A DNA stretch of 23,812 bases, taken from positions 1-23,812 of IMG/VR virus record IMGVR_UViG_3300033571_025499; one strand, written 5' to 3'. The notes beneath the pieces are model-generated. The model did no database searches, had not been told where the DNA came from, and saw nothing but the letters and a program-made list of their open reading frames with translations. Made by a program: the position numbers and the translations under genes. The stretch is from a virus. Shown here piece by piece: positions 741-14,135 of this stretch. How positions within the stretch are numbered: the stretch's first letter is position 1; every line of letters starts with the position of its first letter.

Positions 741-3629
741 ATGGCAGATCGTTCAATAACACAACTGCCAGTTGCGAATACAGTTAACGGCAACGAAGTA
801 ACTGTAATTGTTCAACAGGGTGTCACAAAGCAAGTAGCTATTGGGTTAATTGCTAACGCAGTGTCGCCCGGAAAATTTATTACTAATATCACGTACGATC
901 CTAACACGTACATGATAACAATTTATTACAGCGACGGCACCACTCAGATGATTGGTCCTGTGCCGGGATTTCAGAGCGCTTATATCGACGGCAGCGGTAA
1001 TTTAATTTTAGTTGGCACCGATGGGACGCTTTATAATTTAGGACCTGTCATCGGTCCGTCAGGATTTAGCGGCTATTCAGGACTGAGCGGCTTTTCTGGT
1101 TTTAGCGGCACATCTGGACTCAGTGGTTATTCTGGATCGGGTGTGAGTGGCTTTTCTGGTTTTAGCGGACAGTCTGGTTTAAGTGGATTTAGTGGCGCAT
1201 CTGGTTTTAGCGGACAGTCTGGTTTAAGTGGATTTAGCGGAGTCTCCGGTTTTAGTGGCACTAGCGGTATCTCTGGCTTTAGTGGAACATCTGGTTTTAG
1301 TGGCGCTAGCGGTATTTCTGGCTTTAGTGGAGCATCTGGTTTCAGTGGCGCTAGCGGTATTTCTGGCTTTAGCGGAACATCTGGTTTCAGTGGCGCTAGC
1401 GGTACCTCTGGTTTTAGCGGAACATCTGGTTTCAGTGGCGCTAGCGGTATCTCTGGCTTTAGTGGAACATCTGGTTTTAGTGGCGCTAGCGGTATCTCTG
1501 GCTTTAGCGGAACATCTGGTTTTAGTGGCGCTAGTGGTATCTCTGGCTTTAGCGGAACATCTGGTTTCAGTGGTAGATCTGGATTTAGCGGATTCTCTGG
1601 CGCAGTAGGAGCTGGCGGCACAATTGGTCACTGGGGATCGTTTTGGGACACTACCGATCAGGTTGCAGTATCAGCCAATACGGCCTACCCAGTTACATTA
1701 AACAGCGCCGACCCAAATAATACCGGCGTAAACGTTGTATCTAACAGCCGAGTAACATTTAGTAATGCTGGAGTTTACAGCTTAACATTCTCAATTCAGT
1801 TTGTTAATACTGACCAACAAATACATGACGTTAATGTTTGGTTGCGTAAAAATAATGCAGGAAGTGCTGGTGACGTCCCCGATTCAGACACACGATTAAG
1901 CATTCAACAAAGACATGGCGGGGTTGATGGCTACGGTCTGATGACCGTTAACTTTGTGCTGCAGTTGGAGGCCAACGACTATATCGAAATGATATGGGCG
2001 ACAACAAATACTGATGTATCTATCCAATCTATACCCGCGGGAACTTCACCAGTAAGCCCATCAATCCCGGGTGTCATATTCACTGCAACACAAGTCATGT
2101 ACACCCAGTCTGGTTACAGTGGCTTCTCTGGTATTAGTGGCTTCTCTGGTATTAGTGGCTTCTCTGGCGCGTCCGGGATTAGTGGATTCTCCGGTATTAG
2201 TGGCTTCTCTGGCGCGTCCGGGATTAGTGGATTCTCCGGTTTTAGTGGCACCAGCGGTTTCTCTGGAACGAGTGGTTTCTCTGGAACACCCGGCCAGTCT
2301 ACAAGTTTTTTCTTGTATCGAACAAACACTGGTGCAACTTCAGGGTACCCGGGTGATGGCGATTTGTTGTGGAACAACATAACCCAAACTAGCGCCACGC
2401 AGATAAATGTTAGCCACCTAACGGACGACAACACTGACATCGAGATATTTTTATCATTGCTGCAAGCAGATGAATCTTTTATAATTCAAGATAAAAATGT
2501 TAGTGAAAATTTTCAAACGTGGTTAATAACCGGTACCCCTACTAAAGTAAACTGGGGCACGTCAACCGCATATTTACAGATACCTGTAACGTTAACAGAT
2601 TCTGGCGGAACCGGGACATCTGGGTTCGCAAACAATCTAGAAGTATTTTTTGCAATCGTGTCCGGCATAAGTGGATTTAGCGGACAGTCTGGTTTTAGCG
2701 GATTCTCTGGCGCTTCTGGCTTTAGCGGCATTAGTGGTTTCAGCGGCATCAGTGGTTTCAGTGGTGATTCTGGTATCAGTGGATTCTCCGGCGCTTCTGG
2801 TATCAGTGGCTTCTCTGGTGCTTCTGGTATCAGTGGCTTCTCTGGCACTTCTGGCATCAGTGGTTTCAGTGGTGATTCTGGCATCAGTGGTTTTAGTGGC
2901 TTTAGCGGCATCAGTGGTTTCTCTGGCGATTCTGGCATTAGTGGCTTTAGCGGCATTAGTGGTTTCTCTGGCGATTCTGGCATTAGTGGCTTTAGCGGCA
3001 TCAGTGGTTTCTCTGGCGATTCTGGCATTAGTGGATTTAGCGGCATTAGTGGATTTAGCGGCATCAGTGGATTCAGCGGCTTTAGTGGCGCTTCTGGCAT
3101 TAGTGGTTTCAGTGGCGATTCTGGTATCAGTGGCTTCTCTGGCATTAGTGGCTTCAGTGGCGTAAGCGGCTTCTCGGGCGCGCAGGGACCTACAGTTTAT
3201 CCCGGATCAGGTATACCGTTATCAACTGGATCAGCTTGGGGAACATCATATGCCTCAGTTAGCGGTGGAATTGTTGGTACCACCGACACCCAGACACTAA
3301 CAAACAAACGGATACAGCCAAGGGTGCTGGCATCCACGGCCAATAGTGCAACCCCAACACTAAACACCGATAACTTTGATATGATGGTAATCACTGGTCA
3401 ATCAGTAGCCATCACCTCATTTACTACCAATTTAAGCGGCACTCCAGTAAACGGTCAAAAGCTATGGATTTCGATCACTGGAACAACGGCTATTGCAATT
3501 ACGTGGGGCGCTTCATTTGAGTCTTCTACGGTCGCGCTACCAACAACTACAACAGGAACAAATAGACTTGATGTAGGGTTTGTATGGAATGTTGCAAACT
3601 CTGATTGGCGTTGCGTAGCAGTCGCATAA
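741..3629 (+). CDS. Collagen-like triplet-repeat tail fibre with C1q-like jelly-roll domain
   Basis: This 962-residue fibre protein is modular. Residues 1-104 form a globular head probably used for virion attachment (MADRSITQLPVA start). Residues 105-286, 458-519 and 642-812 are Gly-X-Ser triplet blocks in which X alternates between Phe/Ile/Leu and small or polar residues. Residues about 289-455 resemble a C1q/TNF jelly-roll, with an NTAYPVTLN strand, the RVTFSNAGVYSLTFSIQF core and a VNVWLRKNN strand. Residues about 520-640 form another beta-rich domain of unknown family. Residues 816-962 form a C-terminal domain with the TTDTQTLTNK motif, shared with the shorter fibre at 6330-7226. The repeats are nearly proline-free, unlike animal collagen, so a true triple helix is not assured. 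No Shine-Dalgarno is visible; translation probably re-initiates 3 nt after the upstream stop. Trimeric receptor-binding or host-adhesion fibre is inferred. Confidence 0.88.
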   Translation: MADRSITQLPVANTVNGNEVTVIVQQGVTKQVAIGLIANAVSPGKFITNITYDPNTYMITIYYSDGTTQMIGPVPGFQSAYIDGSGNLILVGTDGTLYNLGPVIGPSGFSGYSGLSGFSGFSGTSGLSGYSGSGVSGFSGFSGQSGLSGFSGASGFSGQSGLSGFSGVSGFSGTSGISGFSGTSGFSGASGISGFSGASGFSGASGISGFSGTSGFSGASGTSGFSGTSGFSGASGISGFSGTSGFSGASGISGFSGTSGFSGASGISGFSGTSGFSGRSGFSGFSGAVGAGGTIGHWGSFWDTTDQVAVSANTAYPVTLNSADPNNTGVNVVSNSRVTFSNAGVYSLTFSIQFVNTDQQIHDVNVWLRKNNAGSAGDVPDSDTRLSIQQRHGGVDGYGLMTVNFVLQLEANDYIEMIWATTNTDVSIQSIPAGTSPVSPSIPGVIFTATQVMYTQSGYSGFSGISGFSGISGFSGASGISGFSGISGFSGASGISGFSGFSGTSGFSGTSGFSGTPGQSTSFFLYRTNTGATSGYPGDGDLLWNNITQTSATQINVSHLTDDNTDIEIFLSLLQADESFIIQDKNVSENFQTWLITGTPTKVNWGTSTAYLQIPVTLTDSGGTGTSGFANNLEVFFAIVSGISGFSGQSGFSGFSGASGFSGISGFSGISGFSGDSGISGFSGASGISGFSGASGISGFSGTSGISGFSGDSGISGFSGFSGISGFSGDSGISGFSGISGFSGDSGISGFSGISGFSGDSGISGFSGISGFSGISGFSGFSGASGISGFSGDSGISGFSGISGFSGVSGFSGAQGPTVYPGSGIPLSTGSAWGTSYASVSGGIVGTTDTQTLTNKRIQPRVLASTANSATPTLNTDNFDMMVITGQSVAITSFTTNLSGTPVNGQKLWISITGTTAIAITWGASFESSTVALPTTTTGTNRLDVGFVWNVANSDWRCVAVA
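1053..1598 (+). repeat. Gly-X-Ser coding repeat block 1
   Basis: Degenerate 9-bp triplet units are organised into roughly seven near-identical 45-bp higher-order units between about 1254 and 1578 (protein unit GTSGFSGASGISGFS). Differences between copies are mostly synonymous changes such as agt/agc and tct/agt. This near-identity suggests recent unit duplication or gene conversion. Confidence 0.9.
2112..2297 (+). repeat. Gly-X-Ser coding repeat block 2
   Basis: This is a shorter block of the same triplet repeat, containing two nearly identical copies of a unit encoding SGISGFSGAS. It separates the jelly-roll domain from the next globular domain of the fibre and ends at a PGQS break. Confidence 0.85.
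2664..3176 (+). repeat. Gly-X-Ser coding repeat block 3
   Basis: This is the longest uninterrupted stretch after block 1. It differs by periodic acidic triplets: GDSGISGFSGISGFS recurs several times, so an Asp appears about every 15 residues. It leads through GAQGPT into the C-terminal fibre domain. Confidence 0.9.
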
Positions 3630-3667: not shown

Positions 3668-4930
3668 ATGAAATATAGTATTGTTATACCTACGTATAAC
3701 CACTGTAATGATTTGTTAAAACCATGTGTTGATAGTATTATTAAACACAGCGACATGAATGATGTCGAGTTAATTATATCAGCAAACGGTTGTGTAGATA
3801 ACACTAAAGTGTACTTAGATTATCTTGCCACTTTAGTACCAAACTTGATTGTAACGTGGGATGACAAACCGCTAGGCTACGCAAAAGCAACAAACGAAGG
3901 AATTAAAAAAGCAACAGCAAACAAAATTGTGTTGCTAAATAATGATACGATTTTATTGGATCAGGCAAAGAATCAATGGCTGCAAATGTTAGAGGCGCCG
4001 TTTTTGCAAGAGCCAAACATGGGAATCACTGGACCAGTAATCCAACATTCCCCTGACGCAAACCACATTTTTTGTGTATTTTTCTGCGTAATGATTGACA
4101 GAAAAGTATTTGACAGGATTGGTCTGCTTAATGAAGAGTACGGCGTTGGTACCGGTGAGGATGTTGAGTTTTCAATCGAGGCCATGCGCGCTGGATTTCA
4201 CATGGCAGAGCCCGCACCTAAACATTTACAAAACGGCGAGATGTATGTTGGCACATTCCCAATCTACCACGCCGGTGAAGGCACAGTACACGACACGACA
4301 TTAGTTCAAAATTTTAATGATGTGTTTAATAAAAATTGCCGCAAGTTAGCCCGTAAATATAATGCACAAGGCTATAAGTGGAGCTTAATGAATAACTTTG
4401 AGCGCTACATGGCAATTAAAGGCGAAGAAGTACAGCCACGAGAAAAGGGCAGGTATCTATGGGCCGCAAACAAATTAGTTGGGAGCACCGTACTGGAAAT
4501 TGGATGCTCGAATGGATACGGATCTCAATTCTTTGGCAACAGCATCTCGTATCTTGGTTTAGACTACGATGAAAAGATTATCGAGGTAGCAAGAGAAGAG
4601 GGTTGGGGTGACAATAAGCAGTTTGTGCACGCTGATATTAATACGTTTGAGTTAGGTCAGTATGACACCATCGTAGCGATGGAAATAATTGAGCATATTG
4701 ATACGGGCTTAGAGATTGCTCAAAAATTAAAGAAGCACTGCAAACGGTTATTGATTACTGTGCCGTATATGGAGACTCCGGGATTTTGGGGCGAGCACCA
4801 CAAACTGCACATGTTAAACCAATCGCACTTACCCGGGTTTACGTATCAGTTTATGGGCGAGAATGGCGAGATTGCTGATACGCCACATAATGGCATCATG
4901 AATTTGATGTTGTGTGAGTACAATGCCTAA
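3668..4930 (+). CDS. Bifunctional GT2 glycosyltransferase and class I SAM methyltransferase
   Basis: This is a 420-residue fusion. Residues 1-240 are a GT-A fold family 2 glycosyltransferase: the nucleotide-binding start is YSIVIPTYN (3-11), NND (91-93) takes the DxD metal-binding position after the LL strand, and GEDVEFS (163-169) is the usual catalytic ED segment. Residues about 262-415 form a Rossmann methyltransferase: motif I is VLEIGCSNGYG (275-285), the acidic ribose-binding residue is D299 in GLDYDE, then come ADI (322-324) and VAMEIIEHI (336-344). The protein should transfer a sugar from a nucleotide donor and methylate the sugar or a nearby group. The acceptor is unknown. AGGAG at 3658-3662 is a good ribosome binding site. 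It is the first of three overlapping carbohydrate genes set between two triplet-repeat fibre genes, which suggests virion fibre glycosylation or modification of host glycans. Family assignment is firm; substrate is not. Confidence 0.88.
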   Translation: MKYSIVIPTYNHCNDLLKPCVDSIIKHSDMNDVELIISANGCVDNTKVYLDYLATLVPNLIVTWDDKPLGYAKATNEGIKKATANKIVLLNNDTILLDQAKNQWLQMLEAPFLQEPNMGITGPVIQHSPDANHIFCVFFCVMIDRKVFDRIGLLNEEYGVGTGEDVEFSIEAMRAGFHMAEPAPKHLQNGEMYVGTFPIYHAGEGTVHDTTLVQNFNDVFNKNCRKLARKYNAQGYKWSLMNNFERYMAIKGEEVQPREKGRYLWAANKLVGSTVLEIGCSNGYGSQFFGNSISYLGLDYDEKIIEVAREEGWGDNKQFVHADINTFELGQYDTIVAMEIIEHIDTGLEIAQKLKKHCKRLLITVPYMETPGFWGEHHKLHMLNQSHLPGFTYQFMGENGEIADTPHNGIMNLMLCEYNA

Positions 4931-5891
4931 GATATTGTGTTCGATTGCAACCCGCGGTAGGTATTTCTCTACACTGCCGCTAGTGTTAAATGCGGTGATT
5001 AACCAGACGCGTCCCGTAGATAAAGTTGTTATTTTTGATGACAACGACGAGCCGCAAGACATGCGAAAAGAGTTGGTGTACAACTACTTTTTTCAAATGA
5101 TGGATTTGAAAGGTATTGCGTGGGAGTGGTTGTTTGCTGAGAAAAAAGGTCAGCACCACATTCACCAACGAGCCAATTTGATGAAGTTTGATTGGGTCTG
5201 GCGAGTTGATGACGATGCAATACCTGAACCCAACGTTTTGGAAAATTTAACCAAGCATATAGCTGACGACGTGGGTGCGGTAGGTGGGTCGATATTAACG
5301 CCACCATACTTGCCAGACACAAGTGAAGTCAGTGGTACAATTGACAAAATTAATGACGAACCAAACATACAGTGGGGAGTAATTAAAAATGTTAGAGAAG
5401 TTGAGCATCTGCATTGTAGCTTTATTTATCGTGCTGGCGTTTGCGATTACAACCTCGGATTATCTCGAGTTGCACACAGGGAAGAAACCTTGTTCACTTG
5501 GGGGCTGCATCGTAAAGGTTACCGGATCTTAGCTGTACCAAACGCAGTAACGCTGCACATGAAAAACCCGCAAGGTGGGATTCGTAGCGAGACACAACAG
5601 AGCATGTATTGGCACGACGAGCAGATATTTAAGAATATTATAGATTACCGCGACAAAACGATAGTAGTCTTAAATAACGGTTTAGGCGATCACATTGTAT
5701 TTAGTCATGTGTTGCCAGATGTTAAAAATGCTGAGGTGTTTAGCTGCTACCCTGAAATTGTTCCGGGTAACTCAATCGCCGCCGCGCAGGCTTTGTTTGG
5801 TGATATTGAGTCGTACAATGTGTACGCCAAAATGGCGCAGTGGGGTTGGAAAGATAGTTTAGAAAACGCTTACCGAAAGTTGTACGTATGA
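4923..5891 (+). CDS. GT2-type glycosyltransferase fused to a short GT9-like N-terminal half
   Basis: With the ATG at 4923 the protein has 322 residues. A GTG at 4914 would add three, but it has no ribosome binding site and the family normally begins MxKILCSIATRGR. Residues 1-230 look like a GT-A family 2 enzyme: SIATRGR (7-13), the acidic pair DD at 39-40, a DDD metal motif (96-98, WRVDDDAIPEP) and HREETLF (185-191). Residues about 246-322 change character: IVVLNNGLGDHIVFSHVLP matches the start of GT9/heptosyltransferase proteins (typically xRxGGxGDxxxxTPxL). Only about 75 residues of that half exist, and the matching C-terminal half is encoded by the next gene. It overlaps the upstream gene by 8 nt and the downstream one by ATGA, so all three are coupled. 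The GT2 assignment is confident; the GT9-like tail is a motif-based reading. Confidence 0.8.
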   Translation: MPKILCSIATRGRYFSTLPLVLNAVINQTRPVDKVVIFDDNDEPQDMRKELVYNYFFQMMDLKGIAWEWLFAEKKGQHHIHQRANLMKFDWVWRVDDDAIPEPNVLENLTKHIADDVGAVGGSILTPPYLPDTSEVSGTIDKINDEPNIQWGVIKNVREVEHLHCSFIYRAGVCDYNLGLSRVAHREETLFTWGLHRKGYRILAVPNAVTLHMKNPQGGIRSETQQSMYWHDEQIFKNIIDYRDKTIVVLNNGLGDHIVFSHVLPDVKNAEVFSCYPEIVPGNSIAAAQALFGDIESYNVYAKMAQWGWKDSLENAYRKLYV

Positions 5892-6325
5892 TTATTATTT
5901 CACCATACGCTAAAGCGCTTCGAAACGGCAAACAAAACCCAAAAAACTACCCGTATTGGGAAGAGCTAATTAAGCTAATTGATGAGCCGATTGTACAAGT
6001 TGGCGTGCTTGGTGAGAAACAGTTAGTTGACGATTTTAGGCAAAATTTACCGTTAGCTGATTTAAGGCAGCTAGTACAAGACTGCAGGACTTGGATTGGT
6101 ATTGATAGTTTTTTCCAGCACTTATGCTGGGACGAAGGCAAAAAAGGAATTGTTTTGTGGGGGCCTTCCGATCCATTAATATTTGGACACCCCGAAAACA
6201 TTAATTTATTAAAAGATCGTTCCCATTTAACACCCAATCAGTTTTTATGGTGGGAGTTTACAGAACACAAAAAAGAACGATTTGTAGAACCACATGTAGT
6301 AATGGAACACTTAAACAAGGTATAA
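5888..6325 (+). CDS. GT9 (heptosyltransferase-like) C-terminal half as a separate protein
   Basis: This 145-residue protein resembles only the donor-binding Rossmann half of GT9/ADP-heptose:LPS heptosyltransferases. It opens with a strand and basic loop (ISPYAKALRNGKQNPKNYP). It then has VQVGVLGE (36-43), a DLRQLVQDCRTWIGIDSFF segment matching the family's 'eLaali..ad..ig.DtG', QHLCWDEGKKGIVLWGPSDP (77-96) matching 'mHlAaalgkpvvalfGpt.p', and a tail that would cap the cleft. Its ATG overlaps the previous stop (ATGA), and that gene ends in a GT9-like N-terminal half, so the two polypeptides probably associate into one GT-B-like enzyme. A degraded or lectin-like remnant is the alternative. The reading frame is intact, which argues against simple decay. 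Confidence 0.75.
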   Translation: MIIISPYAKALRNGKQNPKNYPYWEELIKLIDEPIVQVGVLGEKQLVDDFRQNLPLADLRQLVQDCRTWIGIDSFFQHLCWDEGKKGIVLWGPSDPLIFGHPENINLLKDRSHLTPNQFLWWEFTEHKKERFVEPHVVMEHLNKV

Positions 6326-6329
6326 ACAT

Positions 6330-7226
6330 ATGGCACAGTCCGGTTACACCCCCATAGCGCTATATCACAGCACCACTCCCGGCGCTACGCCCGCTGCTGG
6401 CAATTTGGTGGATGGTGAGTTGGCGCTTAATATTGCCGACGGGTACTTATTTTTCAAAAAATCTGGAGTAGTTCAAAATATAGCCGGTTTATCGGGGTAT
6501 AGCGGAATTAGTGGATTTAGCGGCCGATCAGGTTTTAGTGGTTTCTCTGGTTTTAGCGGCACCTCTGGTTTTAGCGGCACCTCTGGTTTTAGCGGCACCT
6601 CTGGTTTTAGTGGCGCTAGCGGCATCTCTGGTTTTAGTGGTGCTGTCGGCTCGACTGGTGCTAGTGGTTTATCTGGTTTTAGTGGCATCTCTGGTTTTAG
6701 CGGCGCTAGTGGTTTATCTGGTTTTAGTGGAGCCAGCGGCATTTCAGGATTTAGCGGCGCGCAAGGGCCTACAATCTATCCCGCGGCAGGTGTCCCGGTC
6801 TCCACCGGGTCAGCTTGGAACTCGTCGTTAACGGCACCCTCCGGAAACCTTGTAGGCACAACCGATACACAAACACTCACCAACAAAACTATCACAGCTC
6901 GAGTTAGTTCTGCGGCTAGTATTAGCTCACCACTTGCTTGGAATAGTGATAATTTTGATCAGTACGCGGCCACCGCGCAGGCGAATGATTTAACAATTAG
7001 CGCCGATGCCGGAACACCAACAAACGGTCGAAAGATTATTTTCCGTTTTAAAGATGATGGCACCGCAAGAGTTTTGACATGGACAACAGGCTCAAGCAAA
7101 AGTTTTAGAGCTGTTGGTGTAGTATTACCCACGACAACGGTAGTTAATAAAACGTTGTACGTTGGCTGCATTTATAATCTGGCAGATGACCGCTGGGATG
7201 CAGTCGCTGTAGCAAGTGAAGTTTAA
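6330..7226 (+). CDS. Short collagen-like triplet-repeat tail fibre
   Basis: This 298-residue fibre has three parts. Residues 1-52 resemble the common phage fibre N-terminus in which AAGNLVDGELALNIADGYL is followed by a short beta strand and VVQNIA; this segment normally docks the fibre to the tail. Residues 53-142 are Gly-X-Ser triplets (GFSGTSGFSG type), interrupted once by GAVGSTGAS. Residues about 146-298 form a globular C-terminal domain homologous by eye to that of the 962-residue fibre: GAQGPT, STGSAW, GTTDTQTLTNK, a SDNFD segment, GTPTNGRK, VLPTTT and a final WDAVAVA strand align in order. The C-terminal domain probably sets trimer register or binds the receptor. AAGG at 6317-6320 lies 9 nt before the ATG. 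It directly follows the carbohydrate-modification genes. Confidence 0.87.
   Translation: MAQSGYTPIALYHSTTPGATPAAGNLVDGELALNIADGYLFFKKSGVVQNIAGLSGYSGISGFSGRSGFSGFSGFSGTSGFSGTSGFSGTSGFSGASGISGFSGAVGSTGASGLSGFSGISGFSGASGLSGFSGASGISGFSGAQGPTIYPAAGVPVSTGSAWNSSLTAPSGNLVGTTDTQTLTNKTITARVSSAASISSPLAWNSDNFDQYAATAQANDLTISADAGTPTNGRKIIFRFKDDGTARVLTWTTGSSKSFRAVGVVLPTTTVVNKTLYVGCIYNLADDRWDAVAVASEV
6486..6755 (+). repeat. Gly-X-Ser coding repeat block of the short fibre
   Basis: There are about 30 triplets with Gly at every third codon and Ser mostly in the third position of the triplet. Three successive copies of an 18-bp unit encoding SGTSGF occur near 6550-6610. The pattern is the same as in the long fibre but with fewer Asp-containing triplets. 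Confidence 0.88.
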
Positions 7227-7422: not shown

Positions 7423-10400
7423 GTGGCTGATAGATATTGGGTAGGCGGTACTGCAAACTGGGATGGTACGGCTGGTACTAAGTGGTCTGCTACGTCTGGC
7501 GGACCGGGCGGGGCATCTGTTCCGACCTCTGCCGATGATGTGTTTTTTACAAACTTATCAACAGGTACCTGCACCATAGCAACAGGTAACACGGGTGCTA
7601 GATCCATTAACTGCACAGGTTTTACTGGAACAATAACTGGTAGTGCAAACATTACTGTATCAGGCAGTGTTACGCTTGTTGCTGGCATGACCCACACTTA
7701 CACAGGTTCTTTGACTGTCAATGCTAGTGCAACAATTATATGCGCTGGAAAAACACTAGCTGATTTTTTAGTAATTAGTCAAACAAGCACGGTAGTTCAA
7801 TTAGGTGATGCTTTATTTGTTAACGGTATTACTTTAAGTTCTGGCACATTCACCACAAATAATTTTTCTGTAACATTAACATCAAGTTTCAACTCAATAG
7901 GATCTTCTTCTCGTACTATTAATTTAGGTAGCAGCACTTTAACATTTGCAGGAAACGTGCCGTTTAACTTTAGCCCAAATACTAATTTGACGCTTAATAG
8001 TGGAACCGCCCAAGCAATTTTTACTAATTCAAACCCAACTATAACTGGAGATAATTTAACCTTTCCAAATATTAGTTGGACAAGCACAAGTGCAGGTACG
8101 TTTGCTATATCTGGCTCAAACAACACTTTTAATAATATATCAATTACGGGAACCACATTAGTTAGCGTAAAACAGGTCACGTTTGACTCCCGCCAAACTA
8201 TCAACGGCACTCTGTCCACCACAGGCACAGCAGGTAACAGGCGAGTATGGTTTCGTGGCGCAACATATGGTATTGCCCAAACCCTTACCATCAACAGCGC
8301 ACCATCCTTAACGGATGCTGACTTCCGTGACATCTACGTCATTGGCACCGCAGCACCCATCTCCGGCACTCGTATTGGTGACTTGCGTGGTTGCCGGGGT
8401 ATTACGTTTAGCACCCCCAAAACAGTATATTGGAATTTAGCGGGCACTCAAAACTGGTCAGCAAACGGCTGGGCAGCAACGTCAACTGGCACACCATCAA
8501 CCGACAACTTCCCACTCGCCCAAGATACCGCCACATTTACTAACGCTGGTAGCGTAACTGGTCCGATTACGATCAATTCCGATATTCCAACCATTAGTGC
8601 TGTGGATATGTCTGGTCGTACAAGTGCGATGACATTATCTATAGGCGCCAATCTAACAATATACGGCGATTGGAAAAACGGTTCTGGTACAACAATATCC
8701 GGATCAGGCACACTTATTTTTTCAGGACGCAATACTCAAACAATAACAAGCGCAGGAAAAACATTTTCAGGTGGAATCACAATCGACTCCTACGGCGGCA
8801 CGGTTGAGCTTGCTGATGCGCTGAACACTGGCTCCCAAACCCTCAATGTTACTAATGGCACATTTGATACTAAAGGTTATGCTGTAACTGCTGCGGTTTT
8901 GGGTTCTGGCAATACCAACGTAAGAACAATTAATTTGGGTGCTAGTACAGTTACCCTAAGTGGTGCTAACCCAATTGGCTTTGCAACATTTACAAATTTA
9001 ACTTTAAACGCCGGAACATCCCAAATTAATTGCACTGCCGGCGCACCAAGTTTTAGTGGTGGTGGCAAAACGTTTTACAACGTTTCTTTTACAGGTGTTT
9101 CGACATCCGGCGGAGCTGTTAGCGGAGAAAACACTTTTAACAATCTTAGCTTTACTGCAACAAGTTCTGCAGGAATAATGGGTTATTCATTTACCGAAAA
9201 TCAAACCATCACAGGAACCCTCACCTGCGCTGGAGCCACAGCAGTACGCCGTATCTTCCTAAGATCCGACACCCTTGGCACAACCCGCACCTTAACAGTC
9301 GGCACTTTATCTGCAAACGACTGTGATTTCCGTGACATCACCATAGCGGGACCTGCTGCTGGTACATCCCCAACTAGAGCAGGTAACTGTGGTGGTAACT
9401 CAGGCATTACGTTCCCTGCACCAAAAACAGTGTATTGGAACTTAGCTGGTACACAATTATGGGCAGCAACAGCATGGGCACCGAGTTCTGGCGGCACACC
9501 CGACATTAACAACTTTCCGTTGGCTCAAGATACTGCGGTGTTTGATAATGCAGGTGCAGCAAATACCGTTACAACTGGTGGAGTAGTTTGGAACGCAGGA
9601 ACAATCAATATGTCTGCACGAACAAGTGCTATGACATTTGGCCTAGATACTTCTTTTTCTATGCATGGAAGTTTAACTTTAGGTACTGGTGTTACAACAA
9701 TAAATGCCCCAACTCTAACATTCTTTGGTAGAGGAACAAATACATTAACTTCTAATGGTGTAGCAATAACTTGGGGTATTACAGTTAATGCTGCAACTGG
9801 CACTTTGCAATTAGGCGATGCTCTTAATATGAGTTCTCCTGCAAGAACCCTAACATTCACATCAGGAACATTTGATGCTGTGACGTACAACGTGACAACA
9901 GGGACGTTTAGTGCGGTTTCCGCAGCCTCTGGCTCAACATTAAAAATGGGGAGTGGCACATGGACTCTTTCAGGTACTTCACAAGTTTGGGTAGGTATTG
10001 CTACTGGTGTTAATTTTTACAAAGGCACAGCAAATATTGTTCTGTCGGATACCAGCACAACAGCAAGAACATTTTTAGGTAGCAATCTTTCCTACAACAA
10101 GCTCACCATCGGCGGTACAACTGGCATATCAACTACTACAATCAGTGGTAACAACCAGTTCACTGAACTAGCCTCTACTAAAACCGTAGCTCACACTATT
10201 GCATTAGGCACAACCATCCAGACCTTCGGTGCTTGGACAGTTACAGGTACTGTAGGTAACGTAGTAACAGTTACTGGCACAGCTACAATAACTATAGCCG
10301 GAGCAGCAACATCCGGGCTTAACTATTTAGCGATGGGGACAACCGCCCTATCAACAACCAGTCCCGGCGAGTTTTACGCTGGCGTTAATTCAACCGGAAC

Positions 10401-12558
10401 CGGCGCAGGCATCACATTAACAGCACCCCCAACACCCCGCACCGTGTATTGGGTTGGCGGTACGGGTAACTGGTCAAACACCGCCCGTTGGTCAACAGGT
10501 TCTGGCGGAGGCGGCGGCGCTGCAGTGCCAACCAGCCTCGATGATGTCGTGTTCGATATTGGATCAAACGCCACTGCGTACACGGCAACAATTGACCCAA
10601 CTCAAGCCCGTTGTAAATCATTAACGATTGCCGGCCCAGTCTCAGGCAACGTAACCATCGCCGGAACTGGCGGTTTGGCAGCTCACGGAAACGTTACATT
10701 CCCAGCAACTGGCATGACTCGCACGTATACGGGAGCTATTACACTAACTGGCTCAACCACAGGTAGAACGCTGACAACTAACGGTATAGGGCTGGGTGCT
10801 ACTAATATTACGGTTAATGGTGTCAACTGTGAATGGTCGCTTGGTAGTGCAATTACTTTTGGATCTGCTGGAGAATTAATTGTCACTAATGGTTCGTTTA
10901 ACACGGGTAACTTTAATATCACTTCTAGTTTGATTAGCAGCAACAGCCAAAACTCCAGAACTTTAAACTTAGGGTCTAGCACAGTTTCACTTTCTGGGTT
11001 AACACCTCTTGATTTTGGTAATACAGAAACAATCCGAGCCGCTCTAACGTTTACAGCAGGAACCTCACAAATAAACGCTTCAAATGCAAATACAACACTT
11101 AGCGGCAACAACCAAACTTTTTACAACGTTTCTTTTACTGCAAACTTAAACGCAGTAACTATAAACGGTTCAAATACTTTTAATAATCTAAGTATTGCAG
11201 GAAGAACAACCGCAAACGTCAACTTTGTTAACTTGAGTGCCAACCAAACTATCAACGGCACACTAACGCTCTCTGCAGGAACTAACGCCACGATGCGCAC
11301 GTTCGTGCAGTCAGACAACATCGGCACAACACGTACACTGACCTGCGCCGCTGTTGCGACACTTACAGACATCGACTTTCGTGACATCACGATTGCTGGC
11401 GCTGCGGCACCTGTTAGTGGTACTCGTTTAGGTGACTGTAAAGGCAATAGTGGCATTACATTTGATGCGGCTAAGACGGTGTTTTACAGGAGCGCTGCAT
11501 CAGCCAACTGGAACGCTGCTTGGTCTTTTACAAATGGGGGAACCTCCGATATAACTGCTTTTCCGTTAGCGCAAGACACCGCTGTATTCCCATCAAGTCC
11601 TACGCCGTATCCTTCTAGCGGAAATACGGTTACTCTAAATATAAACTACAACCTCGGCACGATTGATATGTCTGCCCGCACCAGCGACACAATGACACTG
11701 GCAACTGCGACAGCTTCTCCATCGATCTACGGCAACTGGATTAACGGCACAGGCACTACGCTGACAGGTACAGGAAATCCGATATTCGCTGGACGTACAT
11801 CACAAACCATTACCAGCGCAGGGAGGACGTTCACGCAAGGCATTGACTTGGACAGCCCCAGCGGTTCGGTGACATTGCAGGATGCGTTCAATTGTTCAAG
11901 GGCAACAGCAGGAACCATTGAAGTAATTACTGGAACTTTTAACGCAAACGGATACAACGTCACACTGTCAGGCAGTGCATCCAGTGTTGTTTCTTCAGGC
12001 TCAACAACAAGAACACTTGCCATTGGATCAGGGACTTGGACAATTGCTGGTACTAATGGGTGGAATACTAGCACATCCACCAACCTCACGGTCACAGGTA
12101 CAGGTACAATCAGCCTAACCAGCGCATCTGCCAAAACATTTAACGGCGGCGGCGTCTCCTACTCAGGCATCACGCTTGATCAAGGCGGAGCTGGCACATT
12201 GACCATCACAGGTAACAACACCTTTGCCAACATCACTAACACCTACAGTGCAACAGGCGCCACAACAATAGCCCTAGGCACAACTACTCAAACTGTAGGC
12301 GCATTTACTGCTACTGGCGAATCAGGTCGGGCGTTAACCGTCACAGGCACTTCCGCAAGCTCTCCAGCCACGCTAATTTTAACCAGCGGCACGGTTACAA
12401 CACCAAACTTTTTGACTATCACGGGTATTAGGGCGTATAACTTGGTAGATACTTGGTACGCAGGCAATAACTCAACTAATAACGGCTCGCTTGGGTGGAT
12501 TTTTGCTTCAGCAACACCACCATCTGGCAACACCAGCAGTTTCTTCTTACTATTCTGA
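7423..12558 (+). CDS. Giant repetitive beta-rich surface/tail protein (1711 aa, five modules)
   Basis: The gene starts at GTG 7423 with CAGGAG six bases upstream. The 1711-residue product is dominated by Thr, Ser, Gly, Asn and alternating hydrophobics, typical of a right-handed beta-helix or stacked beta-solenoid. Five modules of about 330-355 residues begin at Tyr 5, 336, 671, 1009 and 1355. Modules 1 and 4 open with YWVGGTxNW and a VPTSxDDVxF strand. Modules 2, 3 and 5 open with (Y/F)(W/Y)-type variants (2 and 3 share YWNLAGTQ) and carry FPLAQDTA. Modules 1, 2 and 4 close with a DFRDI element plus GITF, while 3 and 5 close with a YAGxNST element. No signal peptide, transmembrane segment or catalytic motif is visible. 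A virion-exposed adhesin or fibre-like role is likely from its place between fibres and lysis genes; enzymatic depolymerase activity is possible but unsupported. Confidence 0.85.
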   Translation: MADRYWVGGTANWDGTAGTKWSATSGGPGGASVPTSADDVFFTNLSTGTCTIATGNTGARSINCTGFTGTITGSANITVSGSVTLVAGMTHTYTGSLTVNASATIICAGKTLADFLVISQTSTVVQLGDALFVNGITLSSGTFTTNNFSVTLTSSFNSIGSSSRTINLGSSTLTFAGNVPFNFSPNTNLTLNSGTAQAIFTNSNPTITGDNLTFPNISWTSTSAGTFAISGSNNTFNNISITGTTLVSVKQVTFDSRQTINGTLSTTGTAGNRRVWFRGATYGIAQTLTINSAPSLTDADFRDIYVIGTAAPISGTRIGDLRGCRGITFSTPKTVYWNLAGTQNWSANGWAATSTGTPSTDNFPLAQDTATFTNAGSVTGPITINSDIPTISAVDMSGRTSAMTLSIGANLTIYGDWKNGSGTTISGSGTLIFSGRNTQTITSAGKTFSGGITIDSYGGTVELADALNTGSQTLNVTNGTFDTKGYAVTAAVLGSGNTNVRTINLGASTVTLSGANPIGFATFTNLTLNAGTSQINCTAGAPSFSGGGKTFYNVSFTGVSTSGGAVSGENTFNNLSFTATSSAGIMGYSFTENQTITGTLTCAGATAVRRIFLRSDTLGTTRTLTVGTLSANDCDFRDITIAGPAAGTSPTRAGNCGGNSGITFPAPKTVYWNLAGTQLWAATAWAPSSGGTPDINNFPLAQDTAVFDNAGAANTVTTGGVVWNAGTINMSARTSAMTFGLDTSFSMHGSLTLGTGVTTINAPTLTFFGRGTNTLTSNGVAITWGITVNAATGTLQLGDALNMSSPARTLTFTSGTFDAVTYNVTTGTFSAVSAASGSTLKMGSGTWTLSGTSQVWVGIATGVNFYKGTANIVLSDTSTTARTFLGSNLSYNKLTIGGTTGISTTTISGNNQFTELASTKTVAHTIALGTTIQTFGAWTVTGTVGNVVTVTGTATITIAGAATSGLNYLAMGTTALSTTSPGEFYAGVNSTGTGAGITLTAPPTPRTVYWVGGTGNWSNTARWSTGSGGGGGAAVPTSLDDVVFDIGSNATAYTATIDPTQARCKSLTIAGPVSGNVTIAGTGGLAAHGNVTFPATGMTRTYTGAITLTGSTTGRTLTTNGIGLGATNITVNGVNCEWSLGSAITFGSAGELIVTNGSFNTGNFNITSSLISSNSQNSRTLNLGSSTVSLSGLTPLDFGNTETIRAALTFTAGTSQINASNANTTLSGNNQTFYNVSFTANLNAVTINGSNTFNNLSIAGRTTANVNFVNLSANQTINGTLTLSAGTNATMRTFVQSDNIGTTRTLTCAAVATLTDIDFRDITIAGAAAPVSGTRLGDCKGNSGITFDAAKTVFYRSAASANWNAAWSFTNGGTSDITAFPLAQDTAVFPSSPTPYPSSGNTVTLNINYNLGTIDMSARTSDTMTLATATASPSIYGNWINGTGTTLTGTGNPIFAGRTSQTITSAGRTFTQGIDLDSPSGSVTLQDAFNCSRATAGTIEVITGTFNANGYNVTLSGSASSVVSSGSTTRTLAIGSGTWTIAGTNGWNTSTSTNLTVTGTGTISLTSASAKTFNGGGVSYSGITLDQGGAGTLTITGNNTFANITNTYSATGATTIALGTTTQTVGAFTATGESGRALTVTGTSASSPATLILTSGTVTTPNFLTITGIRAYNLVDTWYAGNNSTNNGSLGWIFASATPPSGNTSSFFLLF

Positions 12559-12796: not shown

Positions 12797-13161
12797 TTAT
12801 CGAATCCATCATCGGCGCATTGGTTCCGGTTGGTGTTGAGGGAATCAAGCAGCTCATTAATCGTTTTACTGGCGGCGTTAAGCCAACCACCATCGCCGAG
12901 CAGATCGAGCTCGAAAAGATGGACATCAGCCGCATCGAGGCGATTGCCAAACTAGACGCGCCAGCCGGCACACCAAGCCAGTGGGTGGTTGACCTGCGGG
13001 CCTCCGCGCGCTACATTGGGGCATTGTTCGTAATTGGTGTCGGTATTGGTACATTGTTTTTCAATGTCCCCGCAGAAATCCAACGTATCGGCATCGAGGC
13101 CGCTAACATCGCGTTTGGTTTCTTATTCGGTAGCCGCATCATGGCCAACTTAAAACGATGA
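12793..13161 (+). CDS. Holin-like membrane protein (3TM holin type)
   Basis: This 122-residue protein has a hydrophobic N-terminal stretch (residues 2-18) and an amphipathic helical region (32-54). Two clear membrane segments follow, about 73-92 (ARYIGALFVIGVGIGTLFF) and 100-117 (GIEAANIAFGFLFGSRIM). The DLRASAR element (67-73) just before the first strong membrane segment resembles the conserved D-x-R-S-x-x-R element of the 3TM holin families. The basic C-terminus (NLKR) would stay in the cytoplasm. The gene sits directly before two cell-wall-degrading enzymes, overlapping by four bases on each side, which strongly supports a holin that permeabilises the inner membrane at lysis. Family assignment is by architecture and context rather than strong motif. 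Confidence 0.75.
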   Translation: MIIESIIGALVPVGVEGIKQLINRFTGGVKPTTIAEQIELEKMDISRIEAIAKLDAPAGTPSQWVVDLRASARYIGALFVIGVGIGTLFFNVPAEIQRIGIEAANIAFGFLFGSRIMANLKR

Positions 13162-13592
13162 AGTTATCACCAAATTTTACACTGCAAGAGCTAACCACCT
13201 CTGAGATTGCCCAGCGCCGCAATCTGGACAACACGCCCAACGCAACCGAAGTAGCAAACCTCGTGCGCGTGGCTGAACTTTTGGAACAGGTCCGCGCCCT
13301 ATTAGGCAAGCCAATCCTTGTTAATTCAGCGTTTCGCTCAAAACCAGTCAACGATGCCGTTGGTTCGCGTGACACTAGCCAGCATAGGCTGGGTTGCGCT
13401 GCCGACATCCGCGTCCCCGGAATTACACCCAAAGAGGTAGTGCGCCGCTGCATCGACGCCAACATCCCTTTTGACCAGATTATTGAAGAGTTTGACTCTT
13501 GGACGCACATTAGCGTTCCAAACACCAAAGACCAACAACCAAGGCGCCAAGCCTTAATTATTGACAGGAACGGCACCAGACCGTACAATTAG
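13158..13592 (+). CDS. M15-family cell-wall peptidase (endolysin-type D,D- or L,D-carboxypeptidase)
   Basis: This 144-residue protein matches the zinc peptidase M15 (Peptidase_M15_3-like) fold. It opens with SPNFTLQELTTSE, the helical start typical of the family. SAFRS (57-61) supplies the conserved basic substrate residue. SQHRLGCAADI (74-84) provides zinc ligands H76 and D83, and WTHISV (115-120) provides H117; E110 or E111 is the candidate catalytic base. All expected catalytic residues are present. The enzyme should cut peptide stems or cross-links of peptidoglycan. It has no signal peptide, so it would need the holin to reach the wall. It overlaps the holin gene by ATGA and is followed 21 bp later by a GH24 lysozyme. 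A baseplate-borne or periplasmic role is less likely given the cassette. Confidence 0.88.
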   Translation: MKLSPNFTLQELTTSEIAQRRNLDNTPNATEVANLVRVAELLEQVRALLGKPILVNSAFRSKPVNDAVGSRDTSQHRLGCAADIRVPGITPKEVVRRCIDANIPFDQIIEEFDSWTHISVPNTKDQQPRRQALIIDRNGTRPYN

Positions 13593-13613: not shown

Positions 13614-14135
13614 ATGGTAAAAACATGGTTAGCGCCGGTGTGCGCTTGGGCATTTATTGCCAGTGTAGTATTTAACATAATTCAGAGCAAAGAGGTAGAA
13701 ACGTTTAGCTGGGTGGATCACTCCACCGTTGCCCTTTTAGAGCATTTTGAGGGTAAGCGTTACAAAGCCTACCAAGACAGTGAGGGCAACTGGACTACCG
13801 GAGTTGGCCACCTCATTAAGCGCCAGACCCGCGATTTGCTGCATAGGGAGCTTTCCGAGGAGGAGGTAATGGGTATCCTATACCAAGACCTAGAAAAGTG
13901 CACCACGGCCCTAGAATCAAGTTTAAATGCTGGTGTGACGCGACCCCAAATTAACGCGTTATTGAGCCTCTGCCACAATATTGGACCAGACAATTTTTCC
14001 CGGTCAGACGTTATGAAGTACCTAAACCAAGGAAATATTTACCGCGCGGCGGACTCGTTTATGAACTGGAGCAACCCGCCAGTCCTTAAAAAACGCCGTC
14101 AAATTGAGCGACAACTGTTTTTAGCCGGGGCGTAA
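13614..14135 (+). CDS. GH24 lysozyme (muramidase) with N-terminal anchor, probable SAR endolysin
   Basis: This 173-residue phage lysozyme hydrolyses the N-acetylmuramic acid to N-acetylglucosamine bond. The catalytic E-x8-D-x5-T triad is intact: E46 (HFEGKRY), D55 (YQDSEG) and T61 (NWTTGVGH). The usual GVGH loop, the INALLSLCHNIG helix (113-124) and an RRxxE element near the C-terminus (161-165) are also present. Residues 5-23 form a single weakly hydrophobic helix rich in Ala and small residues (WLAPVCAWAFIASVVFNII) without a signal peptidase site. This is typical of a signal-anchor-release domain that tethers the inactive enzyme until the membrane is depolarised. Cysteines at 10, 96 and 120 could support disulfide-based control, as known for P1 Lyz, but this is inference. 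AAGGAGG at 13602-13608 is a strong ribosome binding site. The gene ends in an intrinsic terminator. Confidence 0.93.
   Translation: MVKTWLAPVCAWAFIASVVFNIIQSKEVETFSWVDHSTVALLEHFEGKRYKAYQDSEGNWTTGVGHLIKRQTRDLLHRELSEEEVMGILYQDLEKCTTALESSLNAGVTRPQINALLSLCHNIGPDNFSRSDVMKYLNQGNIYRAADSFMNWSNPPVLKKRRQIERQLFLAGA

Follow-up and report, generated by a model that had tools for sequence, protein, structure and literature searches.

A candidate phage cassette for the O-glycosylation of proline-free collagen-like tail fibres

Three enzyme genes located between two serine-rich collagen-like fibre genes of a phage probably form a fibre-specific protein O-glycosylation module, judging from gene content and from co-occurrence across phage genomes. 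They were found in the IMG/VR virus record IMGVR_UViG_3300033571_025499, of which positions 1 to 23,812 were analyzed (23.8 kb, hereafter the window). All three lie on the strand of the fibres (+) and encode a 420-amino-acid fusion of a family 2 glycosyltransferase (GT2) with a methyltransferase (GT2-MT, 3668-4930), a core GT2 with a 75-amino-acid C-terminal tail (4923-5891), and a 145-amino-acid protein made up of the C-terminal (nucleotide-sugar) domain of GT9/heptosyltransferases alone (GT9C, 5888-6325). The flanking genes, fibre 1 (741-3629, +, 962 amino acids), which is the proposed glycosylation substrate, and fibre 2 (6330-7226, +, 298 amino acids), both matched Pfam Collagen PF01391 (4.7e-59 and 4.2e-15, or 196.5 and 55.7 bits at a cut-off of 27.2). 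The position of the enzyme island between two collagen-like fibre genes, noticed in a first-pass annotation made from the sequence letters, was thus confirmed.

Fibre 1 contains 145 Gly-X-Y triplets in runs of at least four, 136 of them with Ser in Y, and proline is almost absent, while fibre 2 contains 32 such triplets with Ser in Y in 28. The “hundreds of Gly-X-Ser sites” that had been attributed to each fibre are therefore reached when two chains or the trimers are summed, but not per fibre.

Association of the cassette with proline-free fibres

In IMG/VR, searches with the GT2-MT gave 15 loci, those with the core GT2 gave 337, and those with GT9C at least 598. After removal of duplicates and among enzyme-fetched loci, a collagen fibre was found upstream of all 39 distinct cassettes for which 4 kb or more of sequence was available on that side (39/39), and of 54 out of 56 with 2.5 kb or more. 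Fibres of the enzyme-fetched cassettes had a median of 87% Ser in Y and 1% proline-containing triplets.

The neighbourhood survey of Gly-X-Ser fibres in other phages proposed by the first-pass annotation was carried out on an enzyme-blind sample of 120 loci, fetched with a degenerate DNA pattern for Ser-Gly-Phe-Ser-Gly repeats. The core cassette occurred in 36 of the 46 loci that had a collagen open reading frame (ORF) and at least 3 kb of downstream DNA, compared to none of 33 proline-rich loci (Fisher 1e-13). The latter belong to a control sample fetched with a DNA pattern for Gly-Pro-X collagens, with 49% proline-containing triplets and 3% Ser in Y. When any flank of proline-rich collagens was considered, the core cassette was likewise absent (0/79), and a core-GT2 profile search of 40 whole proline-rich collagen records gave no match. 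For 29 of 48 Gly-X-Ser records without a cassette in the fetched piece, the core enzyme was located elsewhere in the record. Among records of at least 30 kb, it was present in 26 of 30 with Gly-X-Ser collagen (19 of 23 from the whole-record search and 7 further contigs already positive) vs 0 of 21 with proline-rich collagen. By these co-occurrence counts, the enzymes are genetically linked to a specific virion substrate.

Methylophilaceae phage P19250A was the sole INPHARED entry with the core genes. It encodes a 1201-amino-acid Gly-X-Ser collagen (gp23), a methyltransferase without a GT domain (gp24), the core GT2 (gp25) and GT9C (gp26). The gene of gp23 (KX815270/L151, 21390-24995) is labelled “tail length tape-measure protein”. 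Over its final 144 amino acids, window fibre 1 shares 83% identity with gp23, although the backbones of both phages differ, and the module was found in both window-type and P19250A-type backbones. Gly-X-Ser collagen and divergent core GT2 homologues also occur in two jumbo-size virus records, that of L181 with 494 kb and that of L232 with 374 kb.

Cellular relatives were rare. Only four were found in 84,980 bacterial and archaeal genomes, all on contigs of metagenome-assembled genomes (MAGs), so the enzyme family looks virus-specific. A Gly-X-Ser/Thr collagen lies upstream in two of these four contigs, including L431 at 37% identity, and the other two contigs end upstream.

Distribution within one siphophage lineage

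Single-linkage of neighbouring genes, applied to count independent backbones, merged 74 of 89 contigs into a single component and was replaced by a lineage test on the J gene. The tip protein J of P19250A served to fetch the lineage, in which 44 loci extended 5 kb or more past J. The cassette was present in 9 of 9 loci with proline-free Ser-rich fibres, in 0 of 8 with proline-rich collagen and in 0 of 26 without collagen (Fisher 1.4e-9, ignoring relatedness), while L497, which has a poor 21-triplet fibre, was without it. The first-pass annotation had named routine occurrence of the enzymes in phages without triplet-repeat fibres as counter-evidence; no such occurrence was seen, either in these 26 collagen-free members or among the 39 cassettes above. 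Its proposal that the phage may glycosylate its own fibres is supported by these genomic tests (39/39 cassettes vs 0/40 proline-rich records and 0/26 collagen-free loci).

Within the lineage, L447 and its sister group (L450, L452 and L477) have their genes in common up to the fibre, where fibre type and cassette change together. L447 carries a Gly-X-Ser fibre followed by the cassette, whereas L452 and L477 carry a GPTGAT fibre and then a different gene, a GT2 with TPR, in the same slot. This 348-amino-acid GT2-TPR directly follows proline-rich collagen at L452:17735-18781, L477:19526-20572 and L448:16194-17240, and GT2s similar to it also lie 3' of proline-rich collagen in L372 and L421.

The same data bear on a hitchhiking explanation, by which cassette and Gly-X-Ser fibre would be a single inherited recombination cassette without functional connection. 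The single component of 74 out of 89 contigs and the low number of independent events speak for it. It is nevertheless considered very improbable, as the catalytic residues are conserved across large divergence, the association persists in L431, at 37% identity, and across two backbone types, and L440, which is nested among cassette carriers, lacks fibre and cassette jointly.

Enzymes of the island

The order fibre, GT/MT, GT2, GT9C, fibre was seen again in dozens of contigs, which argues that the placement of the enzymes between fibres is not due to chance. The description of the three genes as translationally overlapping was borne out, with 8 bp shared by GT2-MT and core GT2 and 4 bp (ATGA) by core GT2 and GT9C; fibre 2 starts 4 bp past the end of the GT9C gene. 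The core GT2 most likely starts at ATG 4923 and not at GTG 4914, since the proteins of relatives open with MDKVLCS, and the 8-bp overlap is counted from this start. The ATGA overlap is present in 156 of 189 relatives, by which a frameshift artefact as the origin of the split between core GT2 and GT9C was ruled out.

Both domains of the GT2-MT fusion were matched in Pfam (Glycos_transf_2 1.9e-15 and Methyltransf_12 1.9e-8), in line with the first description. In an alignment of 19 relatives, its NND motif (91-93) and catalytic D165 are invariant and E164 nearly so. The core GT2 (Glycos_transf_2 3.5e-7) has the residues DDD 99-101, E191, H215 and, in its tail, G256, G258, D259 and H260 invariant among relatives (numbering from the GTG start). 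Both GT2 genes consequently pass as GT-A enzymes by a Pfam GT2 score above cut-off and an invariant metal motif and catalytic acidic residue. The AlphaFold2 model of the core GT2 (predicted local distance difference test, pLDDT, 93) matched cellulose and chondroitin synthases but also ppGalNAc-T and ColGalT1 in Foldseek, and this spread is why the fold was not used to name the acceptor. No PDB entry was matched in a profile search with the core GT2, and PHROGs gave only weak generic matches to the island enzymes.

For GT9C, the match to the C-terminal half of Pfam Glyco_transf_9 (6e-4) is below the Pfam cut-off. The assignment as a GT9-like C-terminal protein was upheld by this match together with a profile match to WaaC residues 180-294 (E 0.006) and by its fold (AlphaFold2 pLDDT 94), for which Foldseek placed TibC on top, with a probability of 1.00 for TibC and WaaC and a template modelling (TM) score of 0.71 to the nucleotide-sugar domain of WaaF. 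No sequence match of GT9C to TibC was detected. GT9C has no N-terminal acceptor domain in its own chain, and a GT9N-GT9C fusion, sought as proof of a split enzyme, was found in none of the 189 loci. The earlier reading of the core GT2 as a GT2 with a GT9-like tail held for the Pfam GT2 domain, but the tail itself lacked a profile match to GT9; the invariant GxGDH motif is its sole pointer in that direction. The N-domain of heptosyltransferases has a GD motif at its first strand-helix turn, and the proposed base is part of this motif.

While the GT2/GT9 core is constant, the capping region is modular. The MT domain is swapped among FkbM (L115, L127, L155, L165, and L161), Methyltransf_24 (L172 and L431) and Methyltransf_12, and capping GTs are added in L157 (extra GT2) and L431 (GT17). 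MT-GT2 (L166) and GT-MT-GT2 (L208) fusions also occur in relatives.

Proposed mechanism and acceptor of the enzymes

The two soluble GT2s and the GT9-type enzyme would act in the cytoplasm on new Gly-X-Ser chains before the virion is assembled. The first sugar would most likely be transferred onto Y-position serines, followed by a second sugar, and the fused methyltransferase might cap the glycan last. The core GT2 probably completes the active site of GT9C with its GxGDH tail, so that both would work as one core GT2/GT9C complex. With about 1% of their triplets containing proline, the fibre collagens are probably stabilized by the sugars in place of proline or hydroxyproline, and the variable caps may also alter fibre recognition. 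A glycan on Y-position Ser that stabilizes or shields the fibre would be the simplest account.

Alternatively, the enzymes could alter lipopolysaccharide (LPS) or capsule of the host during infection, for instance for superinfection exclusion, and lie near the fibres as parts of one host-interaction island. GT9C does match LPS heptosyltransferases, and GTs near fibres of aquatic phages have been read as host modification (PMC7029224; PMC10202952). However, co-occurrence tracks the repeat chemistry of the fibre, as proline-rich-collagen phages of the same lineage are without the cassette, and the association holds in very different phages including the 374- and 494-kb jumbo-size records. The genes are at a late-gene position and overlap between two structural genes. 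Moreover, no flippase was found among the neighbour genes scanned with Pfam, as a Gtr O-antigen conversion cassette would have, nor any membrane GT, and the three enzymes show no transmembrane-like segments (maximum KD19 1.27). Because the enzymes have no membrane segments and hardly any relatives in cellular genomes, host modification, which the first-pass annotation had kept as its alternative, is disfavoured and regarded as improbable.

Modification of phage DNA bases by the GTs was rejected as extremely unlikely. DNA-acting phage GTs exist, and one relative (L157) has a weak match to a TET-associated GT (5e-4), but the partner genes (TET/JBP or pyrimidine hydroxymethylase) are absent among the matched window ORFs, and the enzymes are located in the tail module.

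Within fibre glycosylation, the purpose might be to mask the fibre or to change its recognition by receptor or antibody, with swappable methyl and GT caps under selection, rather than stability. That the caps vary (FkbM, Methyltransf_24, extra GT2/GT17) while the core stays the same is consistent with this, as are mycobacteriophage virion glycans, which according to PMC12619734, citing Freeman 2023, shield against anti-phage responses. Masking alone leaves the pairing with proline-free collagens and the absence from proline-rich ones unexplained, and is judged rather unlikely as a sub-variant whose likelihood overlaps with that of fibre glycosylation as a whole. Masking and stabilizing are not mutually exclusive.

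Several observations weigh against a fibre-specific glycosylation module. The J tree requires three changes for the cassette, and independent pairs fall 3:0 in one direction (sign test p 0.25), while the GT2 tree shows about three module switches between window-type and P19250A-type backbones. As independent gains, losses and backbone switches are few, part of the association between cassette and fibre is inherited. The core is absent from 4 of the 30 large (at least 30 kb) Gly-X-Ser records. An acceptor does not follow from a GT fold, and GT9C in particular resembles the LPS heptosyltransferases WaaC and WaaF as much as TibC, so that its fold does not settle what it acts on. When searched alone against PDB, the core GT2 tail had no GT9 match. 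Finally, the triple helix of a proline-poor repeat is not self-evident from its sequence.

Enzymes next to proline-rich collagens

Other enzymes occupy the position directly 3' of proline-rich phage collagens. Among 81 such proteins, five match 2OG-Fe(II) oxygenases (PF13640, given without a background rate), one a PLOD GT domain (3.9e-49) and one GT25, all of which are enzyme types of classical collagen hydroxylation and glycosylation. Examples of proteins in this position are L324:8041-8637, L328:6076-6687 and L365:10961-11524. Tentatively, there may be a fibre-type-specific maturation code with several collagen modification pathways in prokaryotic viruses, where proline-free Gly-X-Ser fibres are paired with the GT2/split-GT9 cassette, its sugars replacing proline and hydroxyproline, and proline-rich fibres with 2OG-Fe(II) oxygenases, PLOD/GT25-type GT domains or GT2-TPR in the same slot.

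Other genes of the window

The window phage is described as freshwater and probably short-tailed, as suggested by the virion structural genes and a “phage stabilization protein” homologue aboard. A TIG-domain tail protein (114-737, +, Pfam TIG 5e-14) lies 5' of fibre 1 and is a conserved neighbour in the phage group, the order TIG protein, collagen fibre, GT-MT, GT2, GT9C, second fibre being repeated among the fetched loci. Downstream of fibre 2, positions 7423-12558 encode a 1711-amino-acid repetitive protein without a Pfam or PHROG match, which by its repeat pattern, judged by eye, resembles a beta-rich adhesin or fibre. P19250A gp21 (KX815270, 18045-20822), labelled “PE family protein”, starts like it (MADRYWVGGT). 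Two adjacent lysis-type enzymes follow, an M15 peptidase (13158-13592) and a lysozyme-like endolysin (13614-14135). The low-complexity Gly-X-Ser repeat also gives rise to long open frames on the minus strand, at 1127-1621 and 2513-3145, which are not to be taken as genes.

Comparison with known systems and significance

Among known systems, TibC/AAH (BAHT) enzymes share the GT9-type fold, and TibC, a protein heptosyltransferase, hyperglycosylates Ser of a repetitive surface protein, modifying Ser and not Thr in an adhesin peptide (PMC4358343). In contrast to the full-length GT9-type, iron-containing dodecameric BAHT proteins that act on autotransporter Ser, GT9C is a C-terminal GT-B half only, is paired with a GT2, and has phage collagen as its presumed substrate. 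BclA of the Bacillus exosporium is a bacterial collagen-like filament with O-glycans in its repeat (PMC8968730). It had been cited as a parallel in the first-pass annotation and serves as an analogy, but its glycans are attached to Thr in a repeat rich in Pro and Thr and are made by host enzymes, not by a phage, whereas the present fibres are nearly proline-free. In most bacterial collagens, X is occupied by Pro and Y by Thr (PMC8968730). EPclA is likewise a phage/prophage collagen-like fibre, but proline-rich and stable unglycosylated, the recombinant protein being negative in periodic-acid-Schiff staining (PMC3368898).

That viruses glycosylate their own virions, collagens included, is already known. 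The PBCV-1 A064R protein is a viral GT-GT-methyltransferase fusion that makes an O-methylated glycan on the virus's own virion protein (PMC9614988), but this is an N-glycan made by other GT families, and it is carried by a capsid protein of a virus that infects eukaryotes. Mimivirus (L230/collagen glucosyltransferase) modifies collagen-like proteins of its own and adds sugars to them (PMC9614988, PMC9546862), though on hydroxylysine of lysine-containing collagen, with unrelated enzymes and in a eukaryotic host. Mycobacteriophages have glycans on virion proteins (Freeman 2023, cited in PMC12619734), which are placed at the C-termini of capsid and tail-tube subunits and not on collagen fibres, with no pairing to a fibre type. 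The literature searched, which did not cover subscription papers, yielded no earlier description of a phage module that specifically serves proline-free collagen fibres.

The cultured isolate P19250A makes the module testable, and the enzymes may provide a kit for glycosylated collagen biomaterials. If the proposed function is true, a GT family now annotated as hypothetical would obtain a concrete role, while comparable aquatic phage GTs are usually credited with DNA or LPS modification. It would also offer a possible answer to how a proline-free collagen could hold together. Phage-encoded protein O-glycosylation dedicated to tail fibres would then be widespread, and would stand as a clear example of collagen glycosylated by the very bacterial virus that makes it.
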